A stretch of 60,495 nucleotides of DNA from Sphingomonas sp. CCH10-B3. Its GTDB lineage: Bacteria > Pseudomonadota > Alphaproteobacteria > Sphingomonadales > Sphingomonadaceae. Shown piece after piece: positions 1 through 26,115 of this stretch. How positions within the stretch are numbered: the stretch's first letter is position 1; each line of letters opens with the position of its first letter. Position numbers and translations under genes: made by a program. The stretch is from contig NZ_LSIJ01000096.1 in NCBI RefSeq assembly GCF_001556185.1, positions 1-60,495 on the forward strand. The letters run 5' to 3'. The notes below the pieces were generated by a model that saw nothing but the letters and a program-made list of their open reading frames with translations, did not search any database and had not been told where the DNA came from.

Positions 1-30
1 GAAAATGCAGCCCGCTGGCCACACCCAATT

Positions 31-1587
31 CTACACCACATTGACGGACGCGACCCTGACGAGGGCTGCCAGACTTTGTGGTGTTGCCCTGAACCTACTG
101 AAGATCAGCATCTTGGGCGATTGCGTCATCTTCGCCCATGGGCCTGAAGGCGTCCACCAGGTCAGCGATGGCAACACCCAAGGGAGCGCAAGCACCTCTG
201 TCGGTACAAGGCTATTGAGGGCTCGCAGCTTGGCGCTCCCCCAGCCATCTTTTGGCGGCTTGAAGCAATTGGTGACCCCGAGGCGGGGAACGCTGCGTGT
301 GGCGGGAAAGTCTATATTGCGAGAAATCTGATAACGGTCCCCCAGCGCCTGCGCAGGGAGCGGGACTGAAAGCCAATAGCTGACTGCGCTGCCGGCAAGC
401 TTGGGCGATACGTGGTCGGTAAAATGGCGATAGACGTCGAGATCGTGGGGCTCGATCCTTACGGAGGGCGGCGCAGGCTCTCCGGCATGGTCGGAAACCG
501 GGCGCTCGGTCCGCGACATGAGCGGTGTGAGGAGCCTCTCCAGATGATGCTTGAGTGCTTGGGCCTCTTCGATCGCCGCCTGCCGACTGTCGGCCGGCAG
601 ATGACCGATCAAATGCAAGAGATCACCAAACCGACGAAATTGGGTTTCGGCCTCTGCGCGTGCAGCCGACCCGCCCAGAAACTCGATAATCTTGAAAAAT
701 TCGACATGGGGAGCGGCTCCGACGCCATTTTCCCAGCGCTCCGCATAGAAGCGGTAGGGCGTGGCTGACAGGAGGAGGATCGGCGGCGGCGTTCCATTGT
801 TACCCGCCAGCAGTTGGCGCGCTAAAGGGTTATCCGTGCCTGCGTCGAGCAACTCGCGATAGCATTGGAACTCGTCGAAAATCACGAGGTCGGGCGGGGC
901 GGAATCCAAAGCGGCTTGAGCGAGCGCCTTTCGCATCCGGCCTAGGCTCTGACCATATTTGCTCGTCTCGATCGCACGCAGAATGTTCTCGCGGGCAGGC
1001 TTGCCAAATTCCGTACGTAGCGCTCGGCCATAGGCCGTCTTGAAGAGGGCGGAGACGTTGTCGAATTTGCCCTGAGCCTCCTCGCACGCCCATGGCCAGC
1101 CGGAGGTCGCGCCATATTCGATATAGCCTTCAGGAAAGGCATCGGTCAGGCCGGGGTACAGCTCATCCAACAGCAGCTTGATGAACGCACGCTCGACAGC
1201 CTTTCCGCCGTAGAGGCGCTGCGAACTGGAAAATGATGTGGTGGGCGTAAAGGCGTAGAGCCGTATCTTTTCCTTGCGCCGTTCCTCAAACGGAATGAGG
1301 CCGACGCGGTCGATGGTGGAGAGTGCGTCCTTGGCTTCGTTCTTGTCGAGGAAGCGGAGCAGCTCGACCTTGTTCTGGTCCGCGACCTTGAGCCCGCTCG
1401 TAATATAATAGACCGTGAACTTGCGCGCTTTGCTTGCCAGGGCTGCCAGCGTGTCACGGGCAACGACGGTTTTGCCGAGGCCGACCTCGTCCGCGACCAG
1501 GAACCGGCGTAGCGGGTTGCCTCCTGACAGCGCAGCGGTTGCAGCCCTGACCGTTGCGGACTGGAAGGGTTTCGATCTGGCGCTCAT
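31..1587 (-). CDS. SF2/SNF2-type helicase, C-terminally truncated or frameshifted
   Basis: Predicted ATP-dependent DNA helicase or translocase. Visible motifs are Walker A (DEVGLGKT, about residues 33-40), a Walker B variant DEFQ near residue 236, and SATPY near residue 274. A motif IV-like LIFSRFRATPQ occurs close to the end. The second RecA lobe (motifs V and VI) is missing because a TAG at 31-33 ends the frame. Another frame stays open from there to the window edge, so a frameshift or a broken gene is likely, but only outside sequence can show it. The start codon overlaps the upstream PLD gene (ATGA), which makes this the last visible gene of the six-gene leftward operon. Helicase assignment is firm; role in DNA defence is inferred from neighbours. 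Confidence 0.75.
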   Translation of the reverse strand: MSARSKPFQSATVRAATAALSGGNPLRRFLVADEVGLGKTVVARDTLAALASKARKFTVYYITSGLKVADQNKVELLRFLDKNEAKDALSTIDRVGLIPFEERRKEKIRLYAFTPTTSFSSSQRLYGGKAVERAFIKLLLDELYPGLTDAFPEGYIEYGATSGWPWACEEAQGKFDNVSALFKTAYGRALRTEFGKPARENILRAIETSKYGQSLGRMRKALAQAALDSAPPDLVIFDEFQCYRELLDAGTDNPLARQLLAGNNGTPPPILLLSATPYRFYAERWENGVGAAPHVEFFKIIEFLGGSAARAEAETQFRRFGDLLHLIGHLPADSRQAAIEEAQALKHHLERLLTPLMSRTERPVSDHAGEPAPPSVRIEPHDLDVYRHFTDHVSPKLAGSAVSYWLSVPLPAQALGDRYQISRNIDFPATRSVPRLGVTNCFKPPKDGWGSAKLRALNSLVPTEVLALPWVLPSLTWWTPSGPWAKMTQSPKMLIFSRFRATPQSLAALVRVASVNVV

Positions 1588-3389
1588 GAGGCAAGCCGCG
1601 TCCGCGCGATGGCCCAGATCTGCACAAGTTCGTTCAAGTCAGCTTTTTCCCTTTCGCTCAGATTCTCACCGTGGGCGAGAAGGGCGTCGACATAGGGCGC
1701 AAAATGACGATCGGCCCGACCGAACGCCTTGCGGTCGCGTGCCCAAGCCGTGAGGATATCCTCGAGCGTGAGGCGGTCGTATCCCAAGCTCTGGGGGCGG
1801 TTGCTCTGCACCCCGGCGTCTTCATCCCATGCGCCACCGCCGACGGGCAGTGTGTCGCCGCTGAGAATCGCGCGCATCCAGTCATGAAATGCACGAAGCC
1901 CCATGTGGCTGGCCAGCGCGGCCAGATCACGCTGTTCTTCGAGCGGCGGATCGACGGTGACACGCTGCATCCATCGCAAAGCGCCGTCCGGTCCGCTGAT
2001 CCGAGCCTGAATGAAGGCGGACTGGAGTGACAAGGGGATCGTGCCAAGATCGAGGCGGACGGCGTCCGTCTGCCAAGCCAGTAGGTCGCCATTTGCAGGT
2101 CCGGCGTGCAGCACGTGCTCGGGATAGGCAAGCAAGGGAACTGCCCCCGCATCGATCGAGAAGCGTTCCCCGTCTCGACGCAGAACCGGGTTCCAGGATG
2201 CCATCAGCACTTTGCGCGACTCTTCCAGGGCATCGGCCGCGCTCGTGCTGGGCGGATCGGCGACGGCGAGTTCCTCGATGGTGACCGGCGTCGCTTTACC
2301 GATCAGGAATGCCAGGCCGGAGCCGAACGCTTCGCCGGCCTCGAGTTCGACCATGATTTCCGCGTTGCGCCCCGACCAGGCCCTCTCGGTCGCATTGGCG
2401 CTCCCCACTCTCAAGATGGTCTTCTCGCCCGAGTGGAAGCAAAAAATCTTGGCATGCAGAGCAAGGGGGGCCGGCTCCGCATCATCCTCGGACGCGGGCT
2501 CGACGCCTGGCAGCGCGAGCGGAGCTTCGTCAACGAGCACGTCTGGCGCAGTATAGGCGAGGATTTTGGAGAATCCGTCCAGCGGCTTGCCGGGCCGCCT
2601 CGCCATGTCCGTGAGGGCCGGCATCGACGAAATCAGCGTTCTGGATCCAGCCTTGCCCCAGCCACCTGCCTTCTTCACAAAATCGGGCGACAAGAACGGA
2701 CTGATGATGGTTATGCCATCGACCGCGCCGGCTGGTGGTTCCGATGGCAGAGCAACGCCTTCATCCAGTCCATTGAGCAGGCTGCGCAACTGAAACCCGT
2801 CTGGGGCGTCCCACCAGACCGCCTCCAGTTGCTCTGCGATGCCATCGGCATCCTCGCGCGACGCGGAGCGCGCGAGGATGGCCCCGAGTGCTCCGATGCC
2901 TGGGAGCCGAACTCGTCCTTTCGCGCGCTTTTCGCTGCCGTCCAGCAAAACGCCCGCGTCGAGATCCTGCGATCGGGTGAGGTTCCGGCTGCCAATCCAG
3001 AGCTTCCAGCGGGTTTCCCCTTTGGGACCGTTGTAGGCGACCAAAGCAATCTTTGGATGCCAGCTGCGCTCTAGTTCATCGTAAGGCTGCTCGACGATGA
3101 ACTGATCGAGGATGCCCGCGATACGGGGAAGCGCTATCGGCCGCGCTATCCGACCGCGCTGGATTATGATCCTGACGCGATCGCGCAGCTTGTCGATCGC
3201 CTCGGCAAAATCGACCGCCGTGCCGCTGCCCTTGTCGTTGTTGCGAGCAATCAGGGCGAGCAACGCCGCCGCGACCGCCGACAGATCGACTGAGTAGGTC
3301 GCAAACAATGCGAGCTTGACCGTCTCCAGTCGCCCAGGCCGCATCTCGTCGAGATAGGGTTGACCGGACCATGCCTGAGGATCGCTCAT
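1584..3389 (-). CDS. Phospholipase D-like protein of a defence-type operon
   Basis: About 601 residues. Two PLD-type half sites can be seen. The first is HPKIALVAY followed by GSRNLT (about residues 111-138); the second is LHAKIF followed by VGSANATE in the middle of the protein. Both are HxK sites without the canonical downstream Asp spacing, as in the divergent PLD nucleases that accompany helicases (DrmC type). I chose the ATG at 3389 because it forms an ATGA overlap with the DUF6361 stop; the longer upstream frame runs through that gene. It sits between DUF6361 and the truncated helicase. It may be a DNA nuclease or a DNA-binding scaffold; catalysis is not proven by the sequence. Confidence 0.7.
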   Translation of the reverse strand: MSDPQAWSGQPYLDEMRPGRLETVKLALFATYSVDLSAVAAALLALIARNNDKGSGTAVDFAEAIDKLRDRVRIIIQRGRIARPIALPRIAGILDQFIVEQPYDELERSWHPKIALVAYNGPKGETRWKLWIGSRNLTRSQDLDAGVLLDGSEKRAKGRVRLPGIGALGAILARSASREDADGIAEQLEAVWWDAPDGFQLRSLLNGLDEGVALPSEPPAGAVDGITIISPFLSPDFVKKAGGWGKAGSRTLISSMPALTDMARRPGKPLDGFSKILAYTAPDVLVDEAPLALPGVEPASEDDAEPAPLALHAKIFCFHSGEKTILRVGSANATERAWSGRNAEIMVELEAGEAFGSGLAFLIGKATPVTIEELAVADPPSTSAADALEESRKVLMASWNPVLRRDGERFSIDAGAVPLLAYPEHVLHAGPANGDLLAWQTDAVRLDLGTIPLSLQSAFIQARISGPDGALRWMQRVTVDPPLEEQRDLAALASHMGLRAFHDWMRAILSGDTLPVGGGAWDEDAGVQSNRPQSLGYDRLTLEDILTAWARDRKAFGRADRHFAPYVDALLAHGENLSEREKADLNELVQIWAIARTRLAS

Positions 3390-4639
3390 GCGACGTCTTC
3401 CAGATCGCGCAGGAGCCGCTTCACATTCCCCCAGCGATAATGGAGCGGCTCGGCGCGGCCATGGTGCTCGCCTTGCCATTCCATACGCCGATCGACCCCG
3501 AACTGATTGCTGGCGAGACGCGCGCGATTGTCTTTCCTGCTGACTTCCGCCCGCGCGTACACCTCGAGAAGCTGCATGGGGTCCTTGCCATTCGCCCTGA
3601 CCCAGGCCGAAGTTTCTTTCAACACACCCTCCACCGCAGGCGGGAGGTGGCCGATTTCGGCGAGAAACAGGTCCATATCCAGCCGAGCGGCCTGCTTGCC
3701 CCATTGCTCGATCGCGTCGTTCAGTTCGGCGCGGTGCAAATTTGGCTGTGGCCGCTTGTCGCGGGTTTCCTTGAGCGTCTCGACCTGAGCCGCATAGATC
3801 GCCCTGCCGATGGCCGAAAGCGCGGCAGCCTGGCCGGCCCGCTTCAGCATGGCGGCTTCCCTGCCGGCGAGGGCTAGGATTTCGTTGTCCCAGCAGTGAT
3901 CCGCCCCGCCGAGTGGTTTTCCAACCAATTTCGACAAGAGCGACGGCTCACTTGGATCGGTCGGCGAGCGAACGGCGCGGAGTTTGGTCGCGAGATAGAT
4001 CTGCTCTGGGGGTAAAAGGTCGAGCGCTAGTTTTCCTTGGTCATCCTGGGAATACCGGTCATTCCAGTCACCCCAAGAATCCCAGTCCCTGGGTGCATCG
4101 ATCAGCCCCGAGATGGGCCAGGCGACTGTTTCTAGGGGCTTTCCGTCATCGTCATGGTGCGCGCGCTTGCTGGACGCTGCCAGGAGCTTCGCCATGTCCG
4201 GGCGGCTCCACGGCCGGCCATCGGGGCGGGCGCCGATCAGTCCCCATTTGGTGAGCGCCGTCCAATAGACATAGGCTGGCGGCTGACTGATCGTGCGGGG
4301 GAAGACCTCCCCTCCGATCACGCCATCCTTCTCGCCGCCCACGCCCTCGACATATTTGAGCCGGCCGGTCAGCTCATGTTCGAGATCAGAAAAGGCTTGG
4401 CCAAAATCCTTGGGAACAGGGCGTTTCGTCCGCAGGCTTTGGTAAAGCCAGGGGATGAGAAGCGCGTAGCGCAGCCGTGTGTGCAGAACCGATGTGCCGG
4501 GGAAGAAGTGATCTGCGTAGCGCTGGTGGACGATGAGGAAACCAACCTCATCGCGCACGCCCGCCGCGCCGCCGAACATCATCTGTTCGGCCTGGCCCAG
4601 CGCTTTGCGCGATAAAAAAGTGAACCCAAAAGTTGACAC
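3386..4639 (-). CDS. DUF6361 family protein
   Basis: About 417 residues. It resembles the DUF6361 family in its N-terminal STFGF start and in an FFPGTSVLHTRLRYALLIPW block around residues 50-70. The function of this family is unknown. Members tend to sit beside helicases and PLD proteins, which is the context here. A GTG at 4639 is chosen as the start because it gives the family-like N-terminus; a TTG at 4654 would add five residues. It begins 63 bases after the helicase stop at 4703 and ends in an ATGA overlap with the PLD gene, so translation of the pair is probably coupled. No catalytic motif was recognised. Confidence 0.6.
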   Translation of the reverse strand: MSTFGFTFLSRKALGQAEQMMFGGAAGVRDEVGFLIVHQRYADHFFPGTSVLHTRLRYALLIPWLYQSLRTKRPVPKDFGQAFSDLEHELTGRLKYVEGVGGEKDGVIGGEVFPRTISQPPAYVYWTALTKWGLIGARPDGRPWSRPDMAKLLAASSKRAHHDDDGKPLETVAWPISGLIDAPRDWDSWGDWNDRYSQDDQGKLALDLLPPEQIYLATKLRAVRSPTDPSEPSLLSKLVGKPLGGADHCWDNEILALAGREAAMLKRAGQAAALSAIGRAIYAAQVETLKETRDKRPQPNLHRAELNDAIEQWGKQAARLDMDLFLAEIGHLPPAVEGVLKETSAWVRANGKDPMQLLEVYARAEVSRKDNRARLASNQFGVDRRMEWQGEHHGRAEPLHYRWGNVKRLLRDLEDVA

Positions 4640-4702
4640 GAAGCCTGCCCCCAAGGCTTGAGAAAATTCACAGCATAAGAAGATTTCCGATGCCCCTAGG
4701 CA

Positions 4703-7700
4703 TCATTCATTTCCAATAACTTTCAGCCTCATGGCGCGGGTTTCGAGTAGGTAGGTTTCGACGCCGGCGAGCAGATGCAGGCCTTCTTCGCCGATGGCTT
4801 GTCGGGATAGCCCCGGCTGCACAATGCGGACGTCGAACTCGAAGCGGTGATCTTGCCACCCGACCTTGAGCTTCTTGATCGCGGCGGCTGAGCCCTGCTC
4901 GATTCGCGAGCTGAGACCACGGTCGCGGCGCATCTTTTCGCGTCGCAGCATGTGTTGAAGCATGCGGTTTGGCCGGTCGCGCCACCGAGCGGATTTCTGA
5001 GCCTGTCCGCAAACCTCATAAAGGTCTCCGAGGCGCGCACCTGGCGTATCCGCCCCTGAATATTTGCAGTGGTACAGGGTCACGGAAACGACGCTGTCAG
5101 TTATGCGCAGCGCCACGACATCGGCGATTTCGCCTTTGCCATCATCGTCGAAGATCACGTCATAGGGATCTGGGTCGGCCAACAGGGTGTCGATGACCAG
5201 ACGCTGGACAGAGTCAGCGCGCTTGTCCGTGCCCTGGGATTCGACGCGAATATTGGCCTTTGACCAATCCCATGCCTCGATCTTGTCTGACGGGTACGGC
5301 TCGATCGTTTCGCCCTCGGGCAGGGTGTAGAGATGGCTGTAGATGAGAAGCGAGCCATCACCGAAGTCGATCTGAGGTGAGTCCTCGCCGAAGGATTCCG
5401 AGAGCGTCTGGACCTTGCCGCCGATCTTGATCGTCGCCTTGGGGCCGGCGCGTTGGGGGTAACGGGCGTGGCCGTCGCTGAAGACGATCTCGAACTCGGC
5501 CGCGTGGTCGTCGCTTCGCACGGCGAAGCGCAGCGGCCCGGTGCGCGCGTTATCGAGCAACTCGATATCGCATTCGGCGAAGGTTACCGGCACATCGCCA
5601 AACGAGATCTCAATCCGCTCCTCGAACTGCGTGATCAGAGATTCAGGCCAATGGATCGCCACGGGCGGAACAGCCGGTCGTTGGCTGATCTGGTGGGGGC
5701 GCATCGCGCTCTTGAAGACGCCGTCGGTCGTGATGCTGGGATCGTTCACGGTGCGGCCGACATCCTGGCACCAGTCCACCCAGTCGGTCAGGTCATGGAC
5801 TTTGGCGCTGGACCAGAACTTGCCCTTGGCCGAGCATCCCCGTGAAGCAGGAAGGCCTTCGAGGAAGCCGGTGGCGAAGATGTTGTTCTTGATCCTCGAC
5901 TGGGACTTCGCGCTGTCGAGGCCATCGGCGACATCCACGCCCATATACATCGAATAGCGGACGCCTCGTCCCTGATGGTGGGTGAGGCCGAGATTGCGCA
6001 GGATGAGCCGCTTGAACCCGTGGAGGCTGCGGAACACTTCCTCGCCTTCCACGCGGCGCGTCGTATCGCCACAAACCGCCTTTGCGAGCCGGTCAAACGG
6101 CCCCTTTGCAGAACTGCTGATATAGAGCACGCCGCATGCCTGATCCCAGTGAAGCATGTGCAGGTCCCAGGTGACGTTCACCGCCTGCTGCGCGGAGGTC
6201 CAGCGTGCCTGCTCCTCCGCCCGCGTCACGAAGATCGCGACCCGTTGATGCGGGTTGAGCTTCATGCCGAGATAGACGCCGGGGTCGTAGAGTTCTTCAG
6301 CGCGAACGGGATCCCAAGCGTCGCAAGAGGTCCGGTACAGGACCGCGTTCATTTTCGGTTCCAGGGTCTGGAGCGGAATGTCGCTCAGATCTCCCGAAAA
6401 GCCCTTGAACATTTCCGCGCGGCGAACCTGGCGTTCGATCTTTGCGGAACTGAGCGCCTCCACCAACGCATTCCAGTCGGCGTCTTCAGCGTAGAGCTTG
6501 GCCAGCGCGCGATCGACATCGTCGATGCCGGTATTGGCGATCACCGTAGCATCACCCAGCCTCGGGTCCTGGCGGGTGAAGCGGCCGACGAACTGGATCG
6601 TCACCGCAACGCTCTTGTGATGATCGTGCAATGCAGCGATCTTCAGCTCGGGCAGGTCGAAGCCCTCGCCGAGCATATCGACGCAAACGATGATCCGGCT
6701 CTCAAAACGGCGTAGCGCGGCAAGATTTTCGCGCCGTTCCTTCAGTGATTGCTGGCTGTGGACTATGACTGGCCGAAAGTCTGGATAGATCGCCGCATAG
6801 AGCCTGTGCAGGTGCTTGGCGCGTTCGATCGTGTTGCAGCGGGCCATCGCAAGATGATTGAGGCCAGCATCCAGGTCGGTGGCGAGCACTTCGCCGAGCT
6901 TGTCGATGATGGCCTGGTCCGCGTCAGGCTGGTCCAGACCGAAGACTGCTTCGAAGCGGATCGGCTTGAAATAGCCCTCCTGCTGCGCCTTTTTTAGCGG
7001 GTAGGTGTAAATGAACTCGCCATCGACGCGGCCTCCGTCCTCGCGAAACGGCGTAGCGGTGAACTGGATCACTGGGATTGGTGGCTCGTGCTCGACGAAG
7101 AGCCCGCGGAAGGACTTCCACGTCCGTGCCCCGATATGATGCGCCTCGTCGATAAAGAGCGCTGAGGCGCGGGCCGCCATCCGCTCCTGCACCGGTGCCT
7201 CGGCGCGGCCAGCGATCTGCATCGTGGTGACAATGACATTGGCGCTGTCGAAGATTTCGTCGACTTCGGCCTGGCTGGTCGGAATATGCGAGAGCCGCAT
7301 GACCAAAGGGAAGGCTGCGGTCTCATCGAGGCATTTCTGCTGCTTCAGGACGCCGAAGGTCTCGAATTTGCTCGCGATCTGCTCGCGTAGCGCGTCGGTC
7401 GGCACCACCACCAGCAGGCGTTCGAACCGCTGGTTGGCATTGAGCGCCAGCATTGTCTCGGTCTTGCCCGTGCCCGTCGGCATGACGATGGTGGCCGGAT
7501 CGGTCGATCGCGTCGCGTGGGCAAGCGCGGCATGAAGCGCGCCGACCTGTGGACGCCGCAAGCCAGGCTGCGCCGGCTGGCCGTCCGCCGCGGCTCGCCC
7601 CTCGCGCAGATGAATCGCGTCGATCCAGGAAGCGGAGACAGCCTTCAGGCGCTCGCTGCGCGCGGAACGATCCAGCGTGTCGATGCTGGTGGGCGGTACA

Positions 7701-8044
7701 TTCATCCACCGGCCTTCACCCAGTTCGAGCGCCGCAGCGATCCGTTCCGGCTCCGTTGCGCCGGGCACAAGGAGAATGAGATCGGCTTCCAATGGCGTGG
7801 TCGTCTTCGCGCTGATGATCTTCAGAATCTCGCCGGATTCCAGGGTCGTCTCGTGACCATTGACACGGCGGATGGCGAAGGGACGCAGTCGGCACCGCAC
7901 ACGCTTCGCCGGAACAGCCAACTGACGCACAGGGCTTCCCAGCACCTTGCCGTCAACGGCAAGCCGAGCCGGCAGCAGGAGTTCGATCTCGGGGTTGAAG
8001 AGATCGTCCTGGTTGGAGCCGGTGGGGCGCTTGCGGGAGGCCAT
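4703..8044 (-). CDS. DEAD/DEAH-box helicase with C-terminal nuclease-like domain
   Basis: Protein of 1113 residues with a restriction-type SF2 helicase core. Visible motifs are Walker A (PTGTGKT, about 189-196), FIDEAHH near 295, FTATPFRED near 325 and QFVGRFTRQ (motif VI) near 490. A specific accessory N-terminal region precedes the core. The C-terminus contains IADVVALRI...VTLYHCKYS, which looks like a PD-(D/E)XK fold with the usual E-x-K replaced by H-C-K; that reading is tentative. The start at 8044 has a good ribosome site (GGAGGGAG) and lies 12 bases after the UvrD gene. It probably unwinds or translocates on DNA with the other operon products. Confidence 0.8.
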   Translation of the reverse strand: MASRKRPTGSNQDDLFNPEIELLLPARLAVDGKVLGSPVRQLAVPAKRVRCRLRPFAIRRVNGHETTLESGEILKIISAKTTTPLEADLILLVPGATEPERIAAALELGEGRWMNVPPTSIDTLDRSARSERLKAVSASWIDAIHLREGRAAADGQPAQPGLRRPQVGALHAALAHATRSTDPATIVMPTGTGKTETMLALNANQRFERLLVVVPTDALREQIASKFETFGVLKQQKCLDETAAFPLVMRLSHIPTSQAEVDEIFDSANVIVTTMQIAGRAEAPVQERMAARASALFIDEAHHIGARTWKSFRGLFVEHEPPIPVIQFTATPFREDGGRVDGEFIYTYPLKKAQQEGYFKPIRFEAVFGLDQPDADQAIIDKLGEVLATDLDAGLNHLAMARCNTIERAKHLHRLYAAIYPDFRPVIVHSQQSLKERRENLAALRRFESRIIVCVDMLGEGFDLPELKIAALHDHHKSVAVTIQFVGRFTRQDPRLGDATVIANTGIDDVDRALAKLYAEDADWNALVEALSSAKIERQVRRAEMFKGFSGDLSDIPLQTLEPKMNAVLYRTSCDAWDPVRAEELYDPGVYLGMKLNPHQRVAIFVTRAEEQARWTSAQQAVNVTWDLHMLHWDQACGVLYISSSAKGPFDRLAKAVCGDTTRRVEGEEVFRSLHGFKRLILRNLGLTHHQGRGVRYSMYMGVDVADGLDSAKSQSRIKNNIFATGFLEGLPASRGCSAKGKFWSSAKVHDLTDWVDWCQDVGRTVNDPSITTDGVFKSAMRPHQISQRPAVPPVAIHWPESLITQFEERIEISFGDVPVTFAECDIELLDNARTGPLRFAVRSDDHAAEFEIVFSDGHARYPQRAGPKATIKIGGKVQTLSESFGEDSPQIDFGDGSLLIYSHLYTLPEGETIEPYPSDKIEAWDWSKANIRVESQGTDKRADSVQRLVIDTLLADPDPYDVIFDDDGKGEIADVVALRITDSVVSVTLYHCKYSGADTPGARLGDLYEVCGQAQKSARWRDRPNRMLQHMLRREKMRRDRGLSSRIEQGSAAAIKKLKVGWQDHRFEFDVRIVQPGLSRQAIGEEGLHLLAGVETYLLETRAMRLKVIGNE

Positions 8045-8058
8045 CGTTTCTCCCTCCG

Positions 8059-14105: not shown

Positions 14106-14129
14106 GGACGCTCTCCTTCCGGGCGCTGC

Positions 14130-14271: not shown

Positions 14272-14279
14272 TTACACGG

Positions 14280-14303
14280 ACTAGATCGGGTTGTCCATCT
14301 AGT
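14280..14303. promoter_or_regulatory. Candidate operator, 7-10-7 inverted repeat
   Basis: Perfect inverted repeat ACTAGAT, ten bases, ATCTAGT, covering the predicted +1 of the rightward promoter. An arm spacing of this kind fits a dimeric winged-helix repressor such as BrxR or CapW binding its own promoter. A second weaker palindrome with GTGT and ACAC ends overlaps the -10 box (14259-14277). Confidence 0.6.
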
Positions 14304-14333
14304 TTTTATGCTCATCTACACGAGGCTGAGGCA

Positions 14334-15218: not shown

Positions 15219-15240
15219 AAGACCTGGGGAGCGCCGGCTG

Positions 15241-18200: not shown

Positions 18201-18744
18201 GGCGGATCGGCAAAAGCGCCGTATGGACCAGCTTGAACGGGAGCGGTTTATCTCCTCGCAGCCGCCGCGCGTGCGGGGCGGCATGGTCGTCATCCCGCGT
18301 GGGCTACTGGAAGAGCGTCAGGCGCCAAGCGTCCCGAACCATTTCGCGGAAGACCCCGTTGCGCGCCGGGTGATCGAGCTTGCTGCGATGGAAGCTGTCA
18401 TGGAGGCCGAGCGGGCGCTGGGCAACGAGCCGGCCGACGTCTCCGCCCAGAAGATCGGCTATGACATCGCCTCGCACGATCCGAAGTCGGGACATCTGCG
18501 CTTCATCGAGGTCAAGGGGCGCATCGACGGAGCCGACAGCGTGATGGTTACGCGGCAGGAAGTCATCACATCGCTGCACGAGCCGGAGAAGTTCATTCTC
18601 GCTATTGTGCCGGTTACGGCCGGCTTCGCCCATGCGCCGCGCTATGTGCGTGGCCCGTTGGTCGAGCGGGAGCCGTCGTTCCTTGAAACCGCAATTCAGT
18701 TTGATCTTCGCCGATTGTTGGAACGGGCGGAGGCCGCACACTGA
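15241..18744 (+). CDS. SNF2-family helicase with C-terminal DUF3883 domain
   Basis: About 1167 residues. Swi2/Snf2-type ATPase motifs: DDPGAGKT near residue 135, ICDEAHRMS, LMSATPHNGKEEDF, NDAAGEGVNLQ and QRFGRIHRIGQ. The C-terminus contains IGYDIASHDPKSGHLRFIEVKG, a DUF3883 domain of Mrr-like PD-(D/E)XK fold with E-V-K. The ATG at 15241 is preferred over a non-ATG start inside the WYL gene and has GGGGAG upstream. DrmD of class 1 DISARM is an SNF2 protein too, so this may be a DNA translocase of the defence complex. Its stop overlaps the next ATG by one base. Confidence 0.88.
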   Translation: MAVRLEDIKNGASVRGVASAQAVHVISVDWIGDQAISVVYRDHNGSVAEAVLYRDDEHRLEVEQSGRAWSFDADGALLRLVTEANRIKLAHYFDPYLAIHTSLVDPLPHQISAVYGEMLPRQPLRFLLADDPGAGKTIMAGLLMKELIARSDLERCLVVAPGSLVEQWQDELGQKFNLEFDILSRDMIENSRSGNPFSDRDRLIVRLDVLARNEELQEKLMSAREWDLIICDEAHRMSATYFGGEVKYTRRYQVGQKLGQVCRHLLLMSATPHNGKEEDFQLFMALLDGDRFEGRFRDGVHYADTEDMMRRLTKEELLKFDGRPLFPERRARTVKYQLSEGEAALYTAVTEYVRTEMNRVQRFAEGDGKKRNNVGFALQILQRRLASSPAAIYQSLKRRRERLENELGEARLAAKGRRAGTSEPTINADMLGNIEEYGQEEIDELEDLISTGATTAETVEQLALEVETLKGLETMALGVLRSGVDTKWSQLNRILDDDLMVDAAGNRRKLIIFTEPKDTLHYLLDKVRARLGNPEAVEVIHGGVSREERRKVVERFMQDKDMLVLIANDAAGEGVNLQRGHLMVNYDLPWNPNKIEQRFGRIHRIGQTEVCHLWNLVAADTREGEVYARLLEKLEAAREALGGRVYDVLGELFDGVALKDLLFEAIQYGEREEVKARLFQQVDGAVDQANLLELLRRRALTNDTMPEAKVEELRLEMERADALRLQPHHIQSFFVEAFQHLGGRIKRREEGRWEIAHVPVRIRERDRQIGNGAPLQTQYERICFEKDKINQQPVAAFVCPGHPLLEAVISLIREQYEQIMRQGAILVDDTDAGDALSAIFLLEHTVQDGRVTSAGKPHVISQRLQFAAIDKAGNTVNAGIAPHLNLRPAKPEEIASVRDLLEESWLTTDLEKAAIRFATVELAQGHVAEVKARRLPEIEKVEQEVRARLKKEINYWDSRAFELKEEERAGKKTRVNWQNAQRRAEDLADRQKRRMDQLERERFISSQPPRVRGGMVVIPRGLLEERQAPSVPNHFAEDPVARRVIELAAMEAVMEAERALGNEPADVSAQKIGYDIASHDPKSGHLRFIEVKGRIDGADSVMVTRQEVITSLHEPEKFILAIVPVTAGFAHAPRYVRGPLVEREPSFLETAIQFDLRRLLERAEAAH

Positions 18745-20015
18745 TGGTCTTGCCGCTTGTAAATATGTCTAGTTGGGGAGCCGCCTCCAGGCAGGTCGTT
18801 CGTGCACTTCGCGGACGCAGTTGCCTGCCTCTCCATGAATTGACGAAAGCCAAGGTAGAGAAGCCCCACGGTCGAACACGGCCGCTGCCTAAGGCATCGG
18901 GGAGCGTTGAATTCAGCGCTTGGCGCTTAGCTCATGCGGTCAAGAAGGCCGATTGCTTGCGATGGCCGACCACCCCGATTCGATGGCTGGGGGCTACCGG
19001 GTTTCTGCTCGAAAATGGCCACTTGTTTGATTGGACGGCGAACGAGTGGTGCCTGCTAGACGGCATGTCGAGTTTCTACGCCGACTTCTCAGGGTCGGGC
19101 TTTGCGGGGCGGATCGCACAAGGCATGGCTCTGCTGTTCCTGGAGGACAAAGGCTACGCCTACGTCGGTCGCTTTGAAACCGAGTGGACGCAACGCGCCG
19201 CCACGCAGAACCGACAATGGCCGGCGGACAAGTCCAAGGCGCCTGATTTTATCGCCGAAAATAGCCAAAGAGAATGGGTCCTCGCTGAGTCGAAGGGCGG
19301 ATTTTCCTCCCCGGGCAAGATGCCACCCATCAAAGGCGCTTTGAAAGATGGACTGAGCCAACTCGACGGTTGGGACAAGTATATCAATCCCCAGCCAATC
19401 AAGAGTTTTGCGATCGGCACCTTCCTGCGGGAGGCCAACGATACCTCTGGCGAGACATCGCTCATCGCCTTCGTCGACCCCGAGCCGGAGACCCCAGAAA
19501 GTCCGGTCGAGTTTCCCCCGGACGTGGTTCGCCGGGCAAACTATGCCTCATGGCTGTCGGCTATGGGCTTGGACGAAGCGGCTGCTCGGCTTCGTGCGGG
19601 CGACGGAGAGCCGCAGCGGTACGAGCTTCCTGTTATCTCCGTTGCCGGGCGTCGGTACGCCGTCAGCATAGCCTCAGTGATGCCAAGGCACCCCGAACTA
19701 TCCAGCCGTGAATTCTGGCGTGATTTTAGGGACTGGCCCTTCTGGCCTCTCCCCTGGTTACGGGATGGCGTCGACATCGAGCTAGTCGGTCTCGATCTCA
19801 AAGTCCTCAACGCACTGAGCTCGGCGACACAATCTGCCGCCGCTTCAGAGTTGATGGCACTTGAGCCTTCCGAGTGGCGAGACACGCCTGCTGACCTGGA
19901 TGGTGGGGCGTTTTACGGCAGTGTTTTTTCGGATGGTTCCTTACTGGGCGAGCTGAGATTGCAGCGTCCCAGCCAGCCATTTCCGGATTTTGAATGGATC
20001 GAGGTGGAACTGTGA
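18744..20015 (+). CDS. Hypothetical protein with PD-(D/E)XK-like motif
   Basis: 423 residues, no family recognised. A candidate nuclease motif is visible around residues 166-184: PDFIAEN, ten residues, then VLAESKGGF, that is PD...ESK. Tryptophan-rich segments follow in the C-terminal half (FWRDFRDWPFWPLPWL). It is embedded in the operon: its ATG shares the A of the SNF2 stop and its TGA overlaps the GTG of the methyltransferase. Base composition is lower in GC than the helicase gene before it. It may be the restriction endonuclease partner of the methyltransferase. Function is inferred from the motif and position only. Confidence 0.6.
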   Translation: MVLPLVNMSSWGAASRQVVRALRGRSCLPLHELTKAKVEKPHGRTRPLPKASGSVEFSAWRLAHAVKKADCLRWPTTPIRWLGATGFLLENGHLFDWTANEWCLLDGMSSFYADFSGSGFAGRIAQGMALLFLEDKGYAYVGRFETEWTQRAATQNRQWPADKSKAPDFIAENSQREWVLAESKGGFSSPGKMPPIKGALKDGLSQLDGWDKYINPQPIKSFAIGTFLREANDTSGETSLIAFVDPEPETPESPVEFPPDVVRRANYASWLSAMGLDEAAARLRAGDGEPQRYELPVISVAGRRYAVSIASVMPRHPELSSREFWRDFRDWPFWPLPWLRDGVDIELVGLDLKVLNALSSATQSAAASELMALEPSEWRDTPADLDGGAFYGSVFSDGSLLGELRLQRPSQPFPDFEWIEVEL

Positions 20016-22804
20016 CAAAATACAAGAAAAAGCTCATCGAAGTCGCGATTCCTCTTGAGAAGATCAATGAGGCCTCAGCGCGCGAAAAATCGATCCGGCA
20101 CGGGCATCCGTCCACGCTGCATTTATGGTGGGCGCGGCGGCCGTTGGCGGCGTGCCGCGCCGTGCTGTTCGCCCAGCTTGTCGATGATCCGTCGAGCGAC
20201 CTCGAAAAATTCCCCACGCATGAAGCGCAGGAGGCCGAGCGCAAGCGCCTGTTTGGCATCATTGAGGAATTGGTGAAGTGGGAGAACTCGACCAACGAGG
20301 AGGTGCTGGAACGTGCCCGCGCCGAAATCCGCAAGAGCTGTGGCGGCGATCTGCCGCCGGTCTATGACCCGTTCTCGGGCGGTGGATCGATTCCACTGGA
20401 GGCGCAGCGTCTCGGTTTTCCGGCCTATGGGTCTGATCTGAATCCGGTCGCGGTGATGATCGGCAAGGCGATGATCGAGATCCCGCCGAAGTTCAAGAAC
20501 GAGGAACCGATTCATCCAGGCCCAAAGGACCGGCAGTTTTACCGCAACGCCGAGGGCATTGCGGAGGACGTCAAATACTATGGCGAGTGGGTGCGTGAGA
20601 AGGCGTGGGAGCGCATCGGGCATCTTTATCCACAAGTGGATCTACCGAAGGAGTACGGCGGTGGCAAAGGGACGGTGATCGCTTGGATTTGGGCAAGAAC
20701 AGTACCCAGCCCCGACCCTGCCTTTTCCAGCGTGCAGGTTCCTATCGCATCGAGTTTCCTGCTCAGCACTAAGGCCGGGAAGGAAACGTGGGTAGAGCCG
20801 ATTGTCGACAAGCAAGCCAAGGCCATCTCTTATCGGATCAGGCAAGGTGGCACGAAAGCCGAACTCGCTGCGGCCAAAGAAGGGACGAAGGCCGGTCGCG
20901 GTGCAAATTTCCGTTGCCTTATGTCGGATACGGCGATCACACCTGACTATGTGAAAAGCAATGGCCGCGCCGGCAACATGGGTCAAACCCTGATTGCGAT
21001 CGTGGCGGAAGGCAATCGTGGCCGGGCGTATGTCGCACCTGCGGAGGCGCACGAGCATCTCGCTTTTTCGGCAAAACCCGACTGGAAACCAGGAACCAGT
21101 TTGCCGAATGATCCACGGAATTTCTGGACCGTGGACTACGGTTTGGCGACCTTCGGTGATTTGTTTACCGACCGACAGTTGGTAGCGCTGAACACCTTCA
21201 GCGAGTTAGTCCAAGAGGCGCGAACACAGATTCAGACTGACGCATTGGTTGCCGGGCTCGCTTCTGATCCGACCCCACTGCGCGATGGCGGCAAAGGTGC
21301 CAAAGCCTACGCCGAAGCTGTCAGCGTGTATTTGTCGTTTGCGATTGACCGGCTTGCGGATGCTGGCAGTTCGATCGCCACATGGTCGTCATCGGAGTTC
21401 ATCCGTTTCACGTTTGCTCGGCAGGCGATCCCGATGACTTGGGATTTCGCTGAATGCAATGTCTTCAGCGATAGTACTGGAAACTATCTCGGTGCCGTCG
21501 ATTGGGTCTGGAAGGCTCTCTCTGGGCTGAGTCCAAACGCGGCCGGCACTGAGATCCAGCACGATGCGCAGAATGTACGTTTGCCGAATGGAGCAGTCGT
21601 TTCGACTGATCCGCCATACTACGACAATATAGGATACGCGGATCTATCAGATTATTTTTATGTATGGCTCAGGCGTAATATCAAGGATGTTTATCCTGAT
21701 CTTGGAAGCACTATTTCCGTTCCTAAAGAAGAGGAGCTGGTCGCGACGCCTTATCGGCACGGCGGGAAAGCGAATGCTGAGGAGCATTTTTTGACGGGTA
21801 TGACGGCGGCTATATCTAGCCTCGCCCGCCAATCATCTTCATCATTTCCCGCGACAATCTACTATGCCTTTAAGCAAAGCGAGGTCGAGCAAGACGGCCT
21901 GAGTTCAACCGGCTGGGCAACCTTCTTACAAGCTGTGATTGAAGCAGGTTACGCGATTGTTGGAACGTGGCCTGTTCGAACGGAGCGTTCAGCCCGGACA
22001 ATTGCGACTGGAACCAACGCTCTCGCAAATTCGGTCGTCTTGGTGTGCCGGAAAAAGGAGATCACAGCCGAGGTCGTTACCCGTGCCGAATTTATCCGTG
22101 CCCTGAAACGTGAATTGCCGCCGGCGATCTCAGAGCTTCAGGCTGCTACCATTGCACCAGCAGATATGCCGCAATCTGCGATTGGACCCGGCATGGGGGT
22201 ATTCTCGCGTTATAAGGCTGTACTGGAGTCGGACGACAATCCGATGAGTGTGAAGACCGCACTACAGCTGATCAACAAGGAACTGGACGAATACCTGGGC
22301 GGTATCCAGGGGGAGTTCGACCCAGACACGCGCTTCGCTATCACCTGGTTCGAGCAGAATGGGCTGAAGACCGGCGAGTACGGGACGGCCAACAGCATCG
22401 CCACGGCGCGCGGCATCTCGGTCGAAAGCGTCAAGCATGCCGGGATCGTGGACAGCGCGGCCGGCAAGGTCCGCATCCTCGCCCGTGATGAACTCGACGA
22501 GGATTGGGACCCGGAGGAGGACCGACACCTGACGGTGTGGGAGTGCCTCCAGCATCTGGTCAGGCGGCACGAGAAGGACGGCATCTCCCACGACACCGCT
22601 GTCCTGTTGAAGAAAATCAACACCCAGGCCGAGGCGGTGAAGGATCTCGCCTACTGCCTTTACGACATCAGCGCCAACAAGCGGAAGGATGCGAAGGAGG
22701 CCACGGCCTACAACGCCCTGATCGCCGATTGGACCGAGCTGACAAAGGCTGCGGCAGCCATCCACGACACAAGCGGCGATCGTCAGATCCGGCTGGACAT
22801 TTAA
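20012..22804 (+). CDS. DUF1156 DNA methyltransferase
   Basis: About 930 residues from a GTG start that forms a GTGA overlap with the preceding stop; GAGGTGG is the ribosome site. The N-terminal DUF1156 block (HPSTLHLWWARRPLAACRA, about 31-50) is followed by an AdoMet-binding motif I, DPFSGGGS (119-126), and a catalytic DPPYY near 533. DPPY is typical of N6-adenine or N4-cytosine amino methylases. About 400 residues separate the two motifs and probably hold the target recognition domain. That stretch is visibly lower in GC than both flanks, suggesting exchange of specificity. DUF1156 and DUF499 genes are known neighbours in defence loci. Confidence 0.85.
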   Translation: MTKYKKKLIEVAIPLEKINEASAREKSIRHGHPSTLHLWWARRPLAACRAVLFAQLVDDPSSDLEKFPTHEAQEAERKRLFGIIEELVKWENSTNEEVLERARAEIRKSCGGDLPPVYDPFSGGGSIPLEAQRLGFPAYGSDLNPVAVMIGKAMIEIPPKFKNEEPIHPGPKDRQFYRNAEGIAEDVKYYGEWVREKAWERIGHLYPQVDLPKEYGGGKGTVIAWIWARTVPSPDPAFSSVQVPIASSFLLSTKAGKETWVEPIVDKQAKAISYRIRQGGTKAELAAAKEGTKAGRGANFRCLMSDTAITPDYVKSNGRAGNMGQTLIAIVAEGNRGRAYVAPAEAHEHLAFSAKPDWKPGTSLPNDPRNFWTVDYGLATFGDLFTDRQLVALNTFSELVQEARTQIQTDALVAGLASDPTPLRDGGKGAKAYAEAVSVYLSFAIDRLADAGSSIATWSSSEFIRFTFARQAIPMTWDFAECNVFSDSTGNYLGAVDWVWKALSGLSPNAAGTEIQHDAQNVRLPNGAVVSTDPPYYDNIGYADLSDYFYVWLRRNIKDVYPDLGSTISVPKEEELVATPYRHGGKANAEEHFLTGMTAAISSLARQSSSSFPATIYYAFKQSEVEQDGLSSTGWATFLQAVIEAGYAIVGTWPVRTERSARTIATGTNALANSVVLVCRKKEITAEVVTRAEFIRALKRELPPAISELQAATIAPADMPQSAIGPGMGVFSRYKAVLESDDNPMSVKTALQLINKELDEYLGGIQGEFDPDTRFAITWFEQNGLKTGEYGTANSIATARGISVESVKHAGIVDSAAGKVRILARDELDEDWDPEEDRHLTVWECLQHLVRRHEKDGISHDTAVLLKKINTQAEAVKDLAYCLYDISANKRKDAKEATAYNALIADWTELTKAAAAIHDTSGDRQIRLDI

Positions 22805-22818
22805 GGGGGGAACGGACC

Positions 22819-25800
22819 GTGGCAAAAAGTACGCGCCAATATGTGTTTGAAGGGATGGAACTGCTGCCGGCGGCGCTGATTCCCTTCGTCGAAAAGCGGC
22901 TCGAAACCTCGCTCAAGGGGCACTGGCAGGTCCAGGTTCTTGAGAAGCTGCCGGGCCTGCGCCCAAACAGCAATGGCGAGGTCGGTTGGGATCAGGCCGC
23001 GCTCTTCAATGCGATGGATCGTTTCTGGAGCGAGGCGTTCAAGGCGGTTCTCGGCCGCGCCGAACGCTCGTTGGTCAACGAACTGGGCGACGTCCGCAAC
23101 AAACTCTCGCACAACGAGACCTTCACCTACGACGATGCCGAGCGCGCGCTCGATTCTATGCGTCGTCTAATGGAGGCGATCAGCGCCGGCGAGACGGCCG
23201 AGCTCCTTGGCAAGATGCGCGATACCATCCTCCGCACGAAATTCACTGAACTTCAGCGCAATGAGGAGCGGCGGAAAACCCAGCGCCTCGAGATCTCGGT
23301 AGAAACGGTGGCGGGGCTTTTGCCGTGGCGCGAGGTGGTCGAGCCGCACCAGGATGTCGCTACCGGCGAGTTCCAGCAGGCTGAGTTCGCGGCCGACCTC
23401 GCCAAAGTCCACTCGGGCAGCGCGCCGCCGGAGTACCGCGATCCGCGCCAGTTCTTCAGCCGTACGTATCTTACCGAAGGTTTGAGCGCACTTCTGGTCG
23501 GGGCCGCGAAGCGGCTGTCAGGCACCGGCGGCGATCCGGTCGTCGAGCTTCAAACCAACTTTGGCGGCGGCAAGACGCACTCGATGCTGGCCCTCTATCA
23601 CATGGCGGGACCGACGCCGGTCCAGGACCTGTCCGGCCTGGACCAGTTGCTCGAGAAGCAGGGGCTCAGCGTGCCGAAGGCCATCAACCGGGCCGTGCTC
23701 GTCGGCACGTCACGGGGGCCGCAGGACTTGCTCCTTGCGGAGGGCGACCGCAAGATTCGCACGACCTGGGGTGAACTTGCTTGGCAGCTCGGCGGCGCTG
23801 ACGCTTACGCGATGGTGGCGGAAAACGACGCCAGCGGCATCGCGCCGGGCTCACACCTCCTAGAGGCGCTCTTCAAGAAATACGCGCCGTGCCTGATCCT
23901 GATCGATGAATGGGTCGCTTACCTGCGGCAGATCTACAAGGTCGAGGGGCTGCCTTCGGGATCGTTCGACGCGAACCTGTCCTTCGTCCAGTCGCTGACC
24001 GAGGCGGTCAAGGCCAGCCCTGGCACACTACTCGTCGCGTCCTTGCCGGCCTCGCAGATCGAGGTCGGCGGCGAAGGCGGTCAAGAGGCGCTTGCGCGTC
24101 TCAAGCAGACCTTCAGCCGCGTGGAATCCTCGTGGAGACCGGCTAGTCAGGAAGAGAGTTATGAGATCGTCCGGCGGCGGCTGTTCAAGGACATCCCGGG
24201 AGACAAATTCCACCACCGCGACAACACGCTGAAGCAGTTCGCCAAGCTCTACCGCGAGAACGCCAACGATTTCCCGCAAGGCTGCGCGGATGAGGATTAC
24301 CGGCGCAAGCTGGAAAAGGCTTATCCGATCCATCCCGAACTGTTCGACCAGCTCTACACAAGTTGGGGATCCCTCGAAAAATTTCAGCGCACGCGCGGCG
24401 TGCTGCGCCTGATGGCGCAGGCCATTCACGAGCTTTGGATGAATGCCGATCCGTCGGTGATGATTATGCCCGGCAGCGTGGCGGTGAGTTCGCCGCGTGT
24501 GGAGCCGGAATTGCTCCACTATCTCGACGTGAGCTGGCAGTCGATCATCGCCGGCGATGTCGATGGCACTGCGTCGACTCCCTACAAAGTCGATCAGTCG
24601 GCGCCGAACCTGAACCGGTACTCGGCGACCCGCCGCGTTGCCCGCGCGATTTTCATGGGAACGGCGCCCACTGCCCAGCAACAGAACACCGGCCTCGACG
24701 ATAAGCAGATCAATCTCGGCGTCGTGCAGCCGGGCGAGCGCCCTGCGATCTTCGGCGATGCGCTGCGCCGGCTGACCAACCAGGCTAAGTTCATGCACGC
24801 CGATCTTGGTCGGTACTGGTATTCGATGTCGGCGAGCCTCAATCGCATCGCCGCGGACAAGGCTGCGCAGATCGAGGCGGCGCTTGTCGACGTGACGATC
24901 GACGCCGAACTCGGAAAATATGTGAACGGCCTCGCCGACCGCGGGCATTTCGATGCCGTGCAGGTGGCACCCGCGTCATCAGCTGAAGTTCCCGACGAGG
25001 CGGGCGGCGTGCGCGCCGTCGTGCTGGGCGTCAAATATCCCCACAACGGGCGCGATGGCTCGGATGCACTGGTCGAAGCGAAGGACATCCTCACTCAGCG
25101 GGGCAGTACGCCGCGCGTCTATCGCAACATGCTGGTGTTCATCGCAGCGGAAGCCCGGCAACTCGACCATCTGCGGGATGCCGTTCGCGCGTCCCTGGCT
25201 TGGGGCGAAATCGTCCGCGACAAGGAGCGCCTTGAACTCCGGCCGAGCGACCAGAAGCTCGCCGAGGCGAAGCAAGCCGAAGCGAGAGAAACGATGAAGA
25301 CCCGCCTCAAAGAGGCGTGGTGCTATCTGCACTATCCGGCCCAGGAGAGTGCCCAGGCCGATTGGGAGTGGGTGTCGGGCAAGATTCCGGCGCAGGACGG
25401 GCTGCTGGCTCGGGCTAGCAAGAAGCTGGTGGCTGAAGAGGGCTTGCTGATGGAGTTGGGGCCGTCGCGCCTCGACCGCGATCTCCAGAAATACATCTGG
25501 AACGACAAGCCGAGACTGTCGCTCAAGGATCTGCGGGAATATCTGAACCGCTACATCTATTTGCCGCGCCTGAAAGGGCAGGATGTGCTGGTCAAGGCGG
25601 TGCATGCGGCGATCAGCGGCATCCTGCCCGGTCCTTTCGCCTATGCCGAGCGGTGGGACGAGAAGACGGACACCTATGCGGGGCTTGCTATCGAGCGGGC
25701 GGGCAATACGCCAGTGGTCATCGACAGCGACAGTGTCATCATTAAACCGGATGTCGCCGACGCACACCGTCCGGCGCCAGTACAAACCGATGCTGGCGGC

Positions 25801-26115
25801 ACGCTAGGGGGCGCTGGCGGTACTCTGCCGACGCCGGGCGAACCTGTCATCGGTGGCGGACCTACCACGTCGCCGACAGAAAAGAAGCCGACGCGATTTA
25901 TTGGCGCGGTGATGATCTCACCTGAGCGGCCAGCGCGGGACATCCATCAGATTGTCGAGGCGATCGTCGAGCAGCTCACAACGCTTCCGAATAGCGCCGT
26001 GAAACTTCGTTTGGAAATCGACGCTGATGTTCCATCAGGCCTAGATCGAGCAAAAGTGAGAACGTTGATTGAGAACGCGAACACCCTCGGGTTCATCGAG
26101 AAGTCAGTCGAATGA
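22819..26115 (+). CDS. Swt1-HEPN / DUF499 AAA-type ATPase
   Basis: About 1098 residues from a GTG at 22819 with a GGGGGG ribosome site, 14 bases after the methyltransferase. The N-terminal 110 residues look like a Swt1-type HEPN domain and contain RNKLSH (93-98), which fits the R-x4-6-H active site of HEPN RNases. A P-loop follows (GGGKTH, 249-254) with a Walker B at LILIDEW near 358, as in DUF499 ATPases. The C-terminal part has a Gly/Thr/Pro-rich linker and ends with a small domain (about 1030-1098). It is the last gene of the rightward operon and probably a core effector or motor of the system. Confidence 0.82.
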   Translation: MAKSTRQYVFEGMELLPAALIPFVEKRLETSLKGHWQVQVLEKLPGLRPNSNGEVGWDQAALFNAMDRFWSEAFKAVLGRAERSLVNELGDVRNKLSHNETFTYDDAERALDSMRRLMEAISAGETAELLGKMRDTILRTKFTELQRNEERRKTQRLEISVETVAGLLPWREVVEPHQDVATGEFQQAEFAADLAKVHSGSAPPEYRDPRQFFSRTYLTEGLSALLVGAAKRLSGTGGDPVVELQTNFGGGKTHSMLALYHMAGPTPVQDLSGLDQLLEKQGLSVPKAINRAVLVGTSRGPQDLLLAEGDRKIRTTWGELAWQLGGADAYAMVAENDASGIAPGSHLLEALFKKYAPCLILIDEWVAYLRQIYKVEGLPSGSFDANLSFVQSLTEAVKASPGTLLVASLPASQIEVGGEGGQEALARLKQTFSRVESSWRPASQEESYEIVRRRLFKDIPGDKFHHRDNTLKQFAKLYRENANDFPQGCADEDYRRKLEKAYPIHPELFDQLYTSWGSLEKFQRTRGVLRLMAQAIHELWMNADPSVMIMPGSVAVSSPRVEPELLHYLDVSWQSIIAGDVDGTASTPYKVDQSAPNLNRYSATRRVARAIFMGTAPTAQQQNTGLDDKQINLGVVQPGERPAIFGDALRRLTNQAKFMHADLGRYWYSMSASLNRIAADKAAQIEAALVDVTIDAELGKYVNGLADRGHFDAVQVAPASSAEVPDEAGGVRAVVLGVKYPHNGRDGSDALVEAKDILTQRGSTPRVYRNMLVFIAAEARQLDHLRDAVRASLAWGEIVRDKERLELRPSDQKLAEAKQAEARETMKTRLKEAWCYLHYPAQESAQADWEWVSGKIPAQDGLLARASKKLVAEEGLLMELGPSRLDRDLQKYIWNDKPRLSLKDLREYLNRYIYLPRLKGQDVLVKAVHAAISGILPGPFAYAERWDEKTDTYAGLAIERAGNTPVVIDSDSVIIKPDVADAHRPAPVQTDAGGTLGGAGGTLPTPGEPVIGGGPTTSPTEKKPTRFIGAVMISPERPARDIHQIVEAIVEQLTTLPNSAVKLRLEIDADVPSGLDRAKVRTLIENANTLGFIEKSVE

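Follow-up and report, generated by a model that had tools for sequence, protein, structure and literature searches.

A segment of DNA from Sphingomonas sp. CCH10-B3 (positions 31 to 26,115 of a 60,495-nucleotide stretch of contig NZ_LSIJ01000096.1, the whole of which is called the window here) carries eleven genes that had been described, in an original prediction, as a defence island that no named system matches and that might form a single system. In this report, we find two known systems, Hma and Azaca, together with a constant AddB-AddA pair (AddBA) that has no name in PADLOC, all around a common control region, and not one new eleven-gene system. We consider it rather probable that an integrative conjugative element carries here a defence array with two arms, built from cassettes, in which AddBA cooperates with its partners. 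The observation behind the original prediction is confirmed and its interpretation is partly supported: the eleven open reading frames (ORFs) lie where they had been placed, six on the minus strand and then a WYL regulator gene and four further genes on the plus strand; each individual domain claim held in Pfam and PADLOC profile matches, and the same family matches bear out a defence island. The claim that no named system matches did not survive, as the profiles of Hma and Azaca match over full length. What the earlier reading missed was the constant part, namely the AddBA pair and a common promoter element. As far as sequence can tell, WYL, an element with facing promoters and AddBA make up what we call the chassis. 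Two sets are plugged into it: next to WYL, Hma with a nuclease cassette in its slot, and next to AddA, a ResIII helicase and Azaca. The predicted features, with mechanically called ORFs, are as follows.

31-1587, minus strand: ZacC, SF2-type helicase of Azaca, N-terminal half in the window
1584-3704, minus strand: ZacB, PLD-domain protein of Azaca (PDLC03829, PLDc_2)
3386-4654, minus strand: ZacA, DUF6361 protein of Azaca (PDLC03828)
4703-8044, minus strand: ResIII/DEAD helicase ('Hel'; Pfam; nearest NCBIfam family RadD)
8059-11520, minus strand: AddA-like UvrD helicase-nuclease (UvrD/AddA plus PDDEXK; addA_alphas)
11451-14105, minus strand: AddB-like protein with a RecB-type nuclease domain (PDDEXK_1)
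14243-14305, no strand: shared control element (conserved blocks and facing sigma-70-like promoter-like sites)
14334-15218, plus strand: WYL-domain regulator (PF13280), BrxR/CapW-like by domain only
15193-18744, plus strand: HmaA, SNF2 helicase with C-terminal NOV_C (PDLC00659)
18744-20015, plus strand: 423-residue PD-(D/E)XK nuclease candidate, in the exchangeable slot between HmaA and HmaB
19994-22804, plus strand: HmaB, DUF1156 methyltransferase with a variable middle part (PDLC00660)
22504-26115, plus strand: HmaC, HEPN_Swt1 fused to a DUF499 AAA+ ATPase (PDLC00662)

Two named systems and a separate AddAB-like pair

We searched the proteins against Pfam, PADLOC-DB (2023) and NCBIfam. The family matches assign the plus arm (WYL, HmaA, HmaB and HmaC) to the Hma system, which PMC8565338 (Payne 2021) describes and PMC12839542 (2026) renames the Type-1 DUF499-centred BREX-Related (BR) system. 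HmaA matches PDLC00659 with 1587 bits over residues 19-1182 (DrmD, the next best PADLOC profile, reaches 394) and has NOV_C, a putative C-terminal nuclease-like domain, at residues 1061-1142; HmaB matches PDLC00660 with 1255 bits and DUF1156 with 113 bits and carries the DPPY motif, as predicted for the N6-methyltransferase of Hma; and HmaC matches PDLC00662 with 936 bits and has an N-terminal HEPN_Swt1 domain (92 bits). Thus, all three defining proteins are present, with HmaC in its HEPN-fused form, in the order helicase, methylase and ATPase that characterizes Hma. Over eight full relatives, HmaB residues 41-160 show an identity of 0.82-0.93 and residues 321-520 one of only 0.41-0.56, and this hypervariable middle fits, as expected, a target-recognition part, which according to PMC12839542 lies after core strand 2 of the methylase. 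DISARM and BREX were rejected for the window, since their defining genes were not found: neither DUF1998 nor DrmB, and neither PglZ nor BrxC, was among the matches listed for the eleven proteins, and HmaA scores 1193 bits higher to HmaA than to DrmD.

The plus arm differs from Hma in the WYL gene upstream, in the control region that it has in common with AddBA and in a PD-(D/E)XK gene inserted between HmaA and HmaB; HEPN fusion and additional in-locus nucleases are reported for Type-1 BR systems in PMC12839542. This 423-residue protein, which had been singled out as a new PD-(D/E)XK candidate, matched nothing in the three profile libraries, and a Foldseek search with its predicted model gave no match at E <=0.001 to solved members; its residues P167, D168, E182 and K184 are invariant in 43 of 43 relatives and follow the PD-X(n)-(D/E)XK pattern, which upholds the candidate. 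The interval in which it lies behaves as a slot: the HmaA-HmaB alignment gap measures 439-4743 bases in the 23 AddBA-linked Hma loci with both ends visible, and 18-54 bases in four of seven AddBA-free Hma loci. Occupants in the AddBA-linked loci belong to TmtA-like, HEC-05-like and HEC-07-like clusters (one representative scanned each) or to a cluster of a 326-residue protein whose representative matched nothing in the scan; relatives of the 423-residue protein occur in L030 and L080, and also between HmaA and HmaB in the AddBA-free locus L124. In L009 (about 1100-8919, minus strand), a simple ORF caller gives HmaA and a TmtA-like slot protein as one frame of 2591 codons, a possible fusion.

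The last three genes of the minus arm are assigned by their profiles to the set ZacA-ZacB-ZacC, and we take the Zac names of PADLOC (ZacABC) to denote Azaca, a system that is reportedly due to Millman 2022, a study cited in a table of PMC10952713. ZacA matches PDLC03828 (298.4 bits) and DUF6361, ZacB matches PDLC03829 (376.8 bits, residues 106-703) and PLDc_2, and the part of ZacC in the window matches PDLC03830 (433.7 bits) and contains the motifs DEVGLGKT, DEFQ and SAT. ZacC looks short because window bases 1-55 are not those of the genome that the window maps to. The last 53 bases (60443-60495) deviate as well, and elsewhere in the two overlaps that were compared (window 1-565 and 60065-60495) the sequences agree. 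In the genome the frame stays open for 1018 codons, or about 1001 residues counted from the start at 1587, and the frame for the C-terminal part scores 590.6 bits over profile positions 346-1018 of 1019. A broken ZacC gene was therefore rejected, the stop at 31 being absent from the genome; the left border given previously, at 31, is thus produced by the edge of the window. The three proteins thus occur together and in the order known for Azaca, with ZacC whole in the genome only, and the difference here is that they follow AddB, AddA and the ResIII helicase in one operon-like run. For that helicase the nearest NCBIfam family is RadD (56 bits, cut-off 720); its ORF cluster occurs in 18 of 80 AddB relatives, always directly after AddA, and copies of at least 80% in seven plasmid records each stand right after AddA by coordinates. 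In the open PMC literature, no mention of ZacABC or DUF6361 was found.

Between the arms, the sequence evidence points to AddBA as a separate AddAB-like family. AddA scores 297.7 bits to addA_alphas of NCBIfam, against a cut-off of 860.75, its closest solved relative is the AddA chain 3u44_A, and the PADLOC matches listed for it are generic UvrD helicases. Of its 65 relatives of at least 1090 residues, all keep Walker A and DWK, and 64 keep DEFQDTDP. AddB matches PDDEXK_1 of Pfam (61.4 bits) and nothing in PADLOC, its sole NCBIfam match, TIGR03623, reaches 40 bits against a cut-off of 299.6, and no solved relative was found by sequence search; H626, D743 and D758-Y-K760 are invariant in 22 of 22 aligned proteins, and the DYK site is kept in 71 of 72 relatives. 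The pair therefore has the SF1 helicase motifs and the two RecB-type nuclease motifs (DWK and DYK) of AddAB, RecBCD and AdnAB, but both proteins fall far below the curated family cut-offs that would mark AddAB orthologues, and the host keeps its own pair, as the same genome encodes elsewhere a further AddA, which is 33% identical over the main match, and a further AddB. These low scores and the second pair argue for a separate family, whose role would be the unwinding and degradation of DNA ends. Two other interpretations were discarded: AddBA as the host's own AddAB, because of those separate genes, and a missing four-cysteine iron-sulphur site as a distinguishing trait of AddB, because the host AddB has only two cysteines. 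In the open PMC literature, the matching passages included none describing this pair in defence loci, and the terms 'AddAB-like', 'AddA-like' and 'AddB-like' were absent among the matches listed; AddAB, AddB, RecB and UvrD are all absent from the main text of PMC12839542. Passages of PMC12948488 and PMC12904381 treat AddAB as a host repair enzyme, PMC13192584 also mentions it, and Mutte 2025, on DNA-repair proteins and immune systems and cited in PMC12904381, may bear on novelty.

A common control region and exchanged partners

It had been predicted that two operons diverge from one control region and have a BrxR/CapW-like regulator, and this arrangement, with a WYL protein as regulator, was borne out. 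The WYL protein matches PF13280 (30.7 bits) and the WYL profile of PADLOC (50 bits). The divergent region (14106-14333) contains two facing sigma-70-like sites, TTGACG-18-AATAAT on the plus strand (14243-14272) and TGGACA-18-AATTAT on the minus strand (14297-14268), against a mean of 0.1 in shuffles, and both are overlapped by conserved blocks at 14259-14279 and 14292-14305. In a count covering 75 loci, both blocks, at a fixed offset of 26 bases, were found upstream of AddB in 29/31 Hma, 7/7 BREX-I and 4/4 type III loci, that is, in 40 of the 42 loci armed in these ways; among 375 random 420-base stretches of the same loci, unscreened for overlap with the element, block 1 occurred in 11 and block 2 in 11. 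The element is conserved together with WYL. The 141-base control region had just two plasmid matches (E <=0.01), and this AddB is present in both records; no palindrome common to seven control regions was found. The control region is thus common to both arms and survives arm exchange. As in loci of the BrxR/CapW type, WYL comes first in an arm resembling restriction-modification (RM) systems, and BREX-I itself accompanies AddB in 7 of 69 relatives; the difference is the divergent control region facing AddB.

A scan of GTDB genomes with AddB gave 106 relatives; the best 80 were fetched, and the titles mark almost all of these as alphaproteobacterial. Wherever the right flank exceeds 300 bases (75 loci), AddA follows AddB, and the partners on either side vary. 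On the left (69 loci with at least 3.5 kb) these are Hma in 27, a ubiquitin-like module in 12, BREX-I in 7, type III RM with an HKD-Snf2 protein in 4, Shango in 3, WYL plus other genes in 7 and other genes in 9; on the right (62 loci with at least 6.9 kb), Azaca in 33 (13 with the helicase), SIR2-HerA in 5, the helicase alone in 4, Shango in 2 and other genes in 18. Module names come from a PADLOC scan of one representative per cluster, and the ubiquitin-like module (multiubiquitin/ThiF/DUF6527) was named from plasmid annotation of relatives. A further scan of ten proteins from 7 of the 16 unresolved left-partner loci found BrxC in L039, ZorA/ZorC/ZorD in L048, a type III methylase with a DrmD-like helicase in L062, Drt1a in L054 and TmtA in L072, and weak matches to IetA in L077 and ZacB in L085. 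Close relatives may differ in their partner, such as L040 and L061 (Hma) versus L044 (BREX-I), and a tree of 73 AddB proteins requires at least 18 changes of the left partner (55 labelled rows, 6 states) and at least 13 of the right partner (43 rows, 5 states). Swaps are thus frequent, yet some linkage remains. Because the same pair stands between exchanged defence systems in relatives, AddBA looks like a common chassis. Two further observations concern such partners. In rhizobial plasmids (L106 and L107, 7-16 kb), genes for multiubiquitin, ThiF, DUF6527, a second UvrD helicase and AbiE-type proteins stand directly before AddBA, apparently as a bacterial ubiquitin-like module linked to it; in a Sphingomonas plasmid (L104, 6779-22023), a run of methyltransferase, helicase, AAA ATPase and restriction endonuclease genes, an RM-like partner, precedes AddBA.

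DNA homology breaks mostly at module borders. Among the 52 loci whose two flanks each reach 9 kb or more, nucleotide homology with the window sets in at the AddA end (8013-8113) in 34, at the helicase end (4716-4729) in 8, at 1418-1454, where the fetched stretch ends, in 6 and elsewhere in 4 (L038, L052, L068 and L084). On the other side it ends at 14018-14169 (the AddB start) or at 18701-18745 (the HmaA end), resuming at 20018-20237 (the HmaB start); the exceptions are L025 (14545) and L030 (21361), the latter carrying a relative of the 423-residue protein. This bears on the proposal that each operon makes a stoichiometric complex. The couplings cited for it are present, with ATGA overlaps at ZacB/ZacC (1584-1587), ZacA/ZacB (3386-3389) and AddB/AddA (11451-11454) and GTGA at 20012-20015; because modules are exchanged both at the junction of AddA with the gene that follows and at that of AddB with WYL, a fixed complex of a whole operon is unlikely. 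Several mechanically called starts, those of ZacB, AddA, HmaA, HmaB and HmaC, are probably too early, and we propose 3389, 11454, 15241, GTG 20012 and a position just past 22804, respectively; the homology of ZacB begins at residue 106 and the HEPN domain of HmaC at residue 117.

A single integrated system, in which two operons form cooperating complexes of eleven gene products, would explain the common control element and WYL, the translational coupling and the recurrence of the whole arrangement in L006, L008 and L009 (95-100% identity for most genes). We regard it as very improbable, because modules are exchanged independently on both sides, which already refutes a fixed system, and because each arm occurs apart from the rest. 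Among 385 genomes of the class, AddB occurs in 9, ZacB in 7 and HmaA (E <=1e-50) in 27, of which 16 reach at least 500 bits; HmaA stands beside AddB in three: G066, G175 and the window genome, G000. Of the seven genomes with ZacB, six contain AddB too, in one run with it in three (G000, G175 and G271) and on different contigs in the remaining three, and the Azaca contig of G060 has no AddB in 13 kb upstream. In 398 genomes of the phylum, ZacB occurs in five, and the four Azaca loci besides that of the window genome have no AddB relative in the 20 kb read; likewise, no annotated AddA or AddB lies within 10 kb of the DUF6361-PLD-helicase runs of Janthinobacterium, Caballeronia and Halomarina plasmids. 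Seven of seven AddBA-free Hma loci (11.5-20 kb read) have no match to WYL, the element, AddBA or Azaca, and the two Hma loci fetched with AddBA have WYL, the element and AddBA. These AddBA-free loci and the exchanged neighbours indicate that the arms are inherited independently, yet under a common control region, and the co-inheritance check proposed with the original prediction thus went against a single system: Hma occurs apart from AddBA and Azaca, Azaca apart from AddBA, and AddBA with other partners. The ZacB-like matches in 19 Cronobacter plasmid records were rejected as AddBA-free Azaca, being partial (42-47% of the query, about 30% identity). In one of the four phylum loci (L112, 12012-13511), a 27% AddA-like match lies just before Azaca, and other UvrD helicases may, as there, occupy the place of AddA.

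The probable mobile element and possible roles of AddBA

The array can be read as the cargo of an integrative conjugative element beside guaA. To its left in the genome (L002, 10075-17815), guaA is accompanied by genes for a tyrosine integrase and a resolvase and by two RepB-like genes; to its right, the window (26189-53680) has LysR, TrbI-, CagX-, VirB8-, TrbL- and TrbE-type genes, a T2SSE ATPase, a TraG-type coupling protein, a DUF3363 relaxase and RepA. A search for direct repeats of an attachment site near guaA gave a longest match of 16 bases, and no tRNA and no Rfam match was found in the window. In plasmids, AddB occurs in 64 of 72,556 records, 40 of them conjugative. Right of RepA, the window also encodes a protein with a YspA/cpYpsA-related SLOG domain (58549-59517).

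Given this context, AddBA might serve the element in repair or transfer, that is, in conjugative recombination or the repair of self-inflicted damage, and not in defence. AddA and RecB families are repair enzymes, and AddBA rides conjugative elements next to nuclease-rich islands; but of 69 left neighbours, 53 are labelled modules and not transfer genes (12 of the 53 are the ubiquitin-like, putative defence module), and the occurrence of AddB is patchy (9 of 385 class genomes), so that we think this role decidedly unlikely. Less easily set aside, but still unlikely in our view, is that AddBA is a self-sufficient defence system that is merely clustered in islands. It is the part kept constant across partners, and a recognised partner is lacking in L050, L052, L068 and L073 (by label) and in the plasmid loci L103 and L105. 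Against this, the divergent element is common with RM-like arms and kept when the arm changes, which suggests joint use; moreover, AddBA has no self-marking enzyme of its own and would have to tell phage DNA from broken host DNA by ends or chi-like sites only.

Several points weigh against our preferred reading of a cassette-built array in which AddBA cooperates with its partners. The blocks were found in none of the ubiquitin-like (0/12), Shango (0/4) and other (0/10) loci, 0/26 in total, and among loci with WYL plus other genes both occur in only 1/7 and the first in 4/7; as 24 of 69 left partners belong to the classes without the element (ubiquitin-like, Shango, other), co-regulation is not universal. 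No module was recognised by label in ten loci with both flanks, including L050, L052, L068 and L073, whose class is given by cluster label alone. The partner changes on the AddB tree are fewer than in 200 shuffles (means 25.5 left and 21.1 right, minima 22 and 17), and the arms are therefore non-random on the tree. The set of loci comes from a search with AddB and is limited to the best 80 of 106, so that its clade is over-represented. Finally, repression by WYL and its binding at the element are suggested by analogy with BrxR as presented in PMC9122589, and the helicase and nuclease roles of AddBA are predicted from family and motifs.

A possible immune chassis

We hypothesize that AddBA and the arms cooperate as follows. 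WYL would repress both arms until infection, and both would then fire together. In the RM-like arm, methylation by HmaB would mark self DNA, and unmarked DNA would be cut or stalled; AddBA, as a second end-loading helicase-nuclease besides the host AddAB, would degrade broken or linear foreign DNA, and Azaca would act as a separate added layer. Because AddBA would degrade ends whichever system made them, it would fit many partners. More tentatively, and with some doubt, we propose a general immune chassis, in which WYL, the element and AddBA form a mobile engine of DNA degradation that is induced with the plugged-in module and finishes off DNA once BREX, Hma, type III RM or Zorya has recognised it.

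An apparently unclassified island of eleven genes is thus resolved into two named systems and a constant part that is unnamed in PADLOC-DB, and annotation tools gain a missing family and a clear boundary rule. The occurrence of the same AddBA with different partners provides natural experiments on cooperation between systems. Should a single control region let AddBA serve many recognition modules, seemingly separate defence systems would share a degradation machine; and if the general chassis holds true, it would supply the degradation step that BREX and similar systems were thought to lack, and defence modules would become interchangeable around one nuclease.

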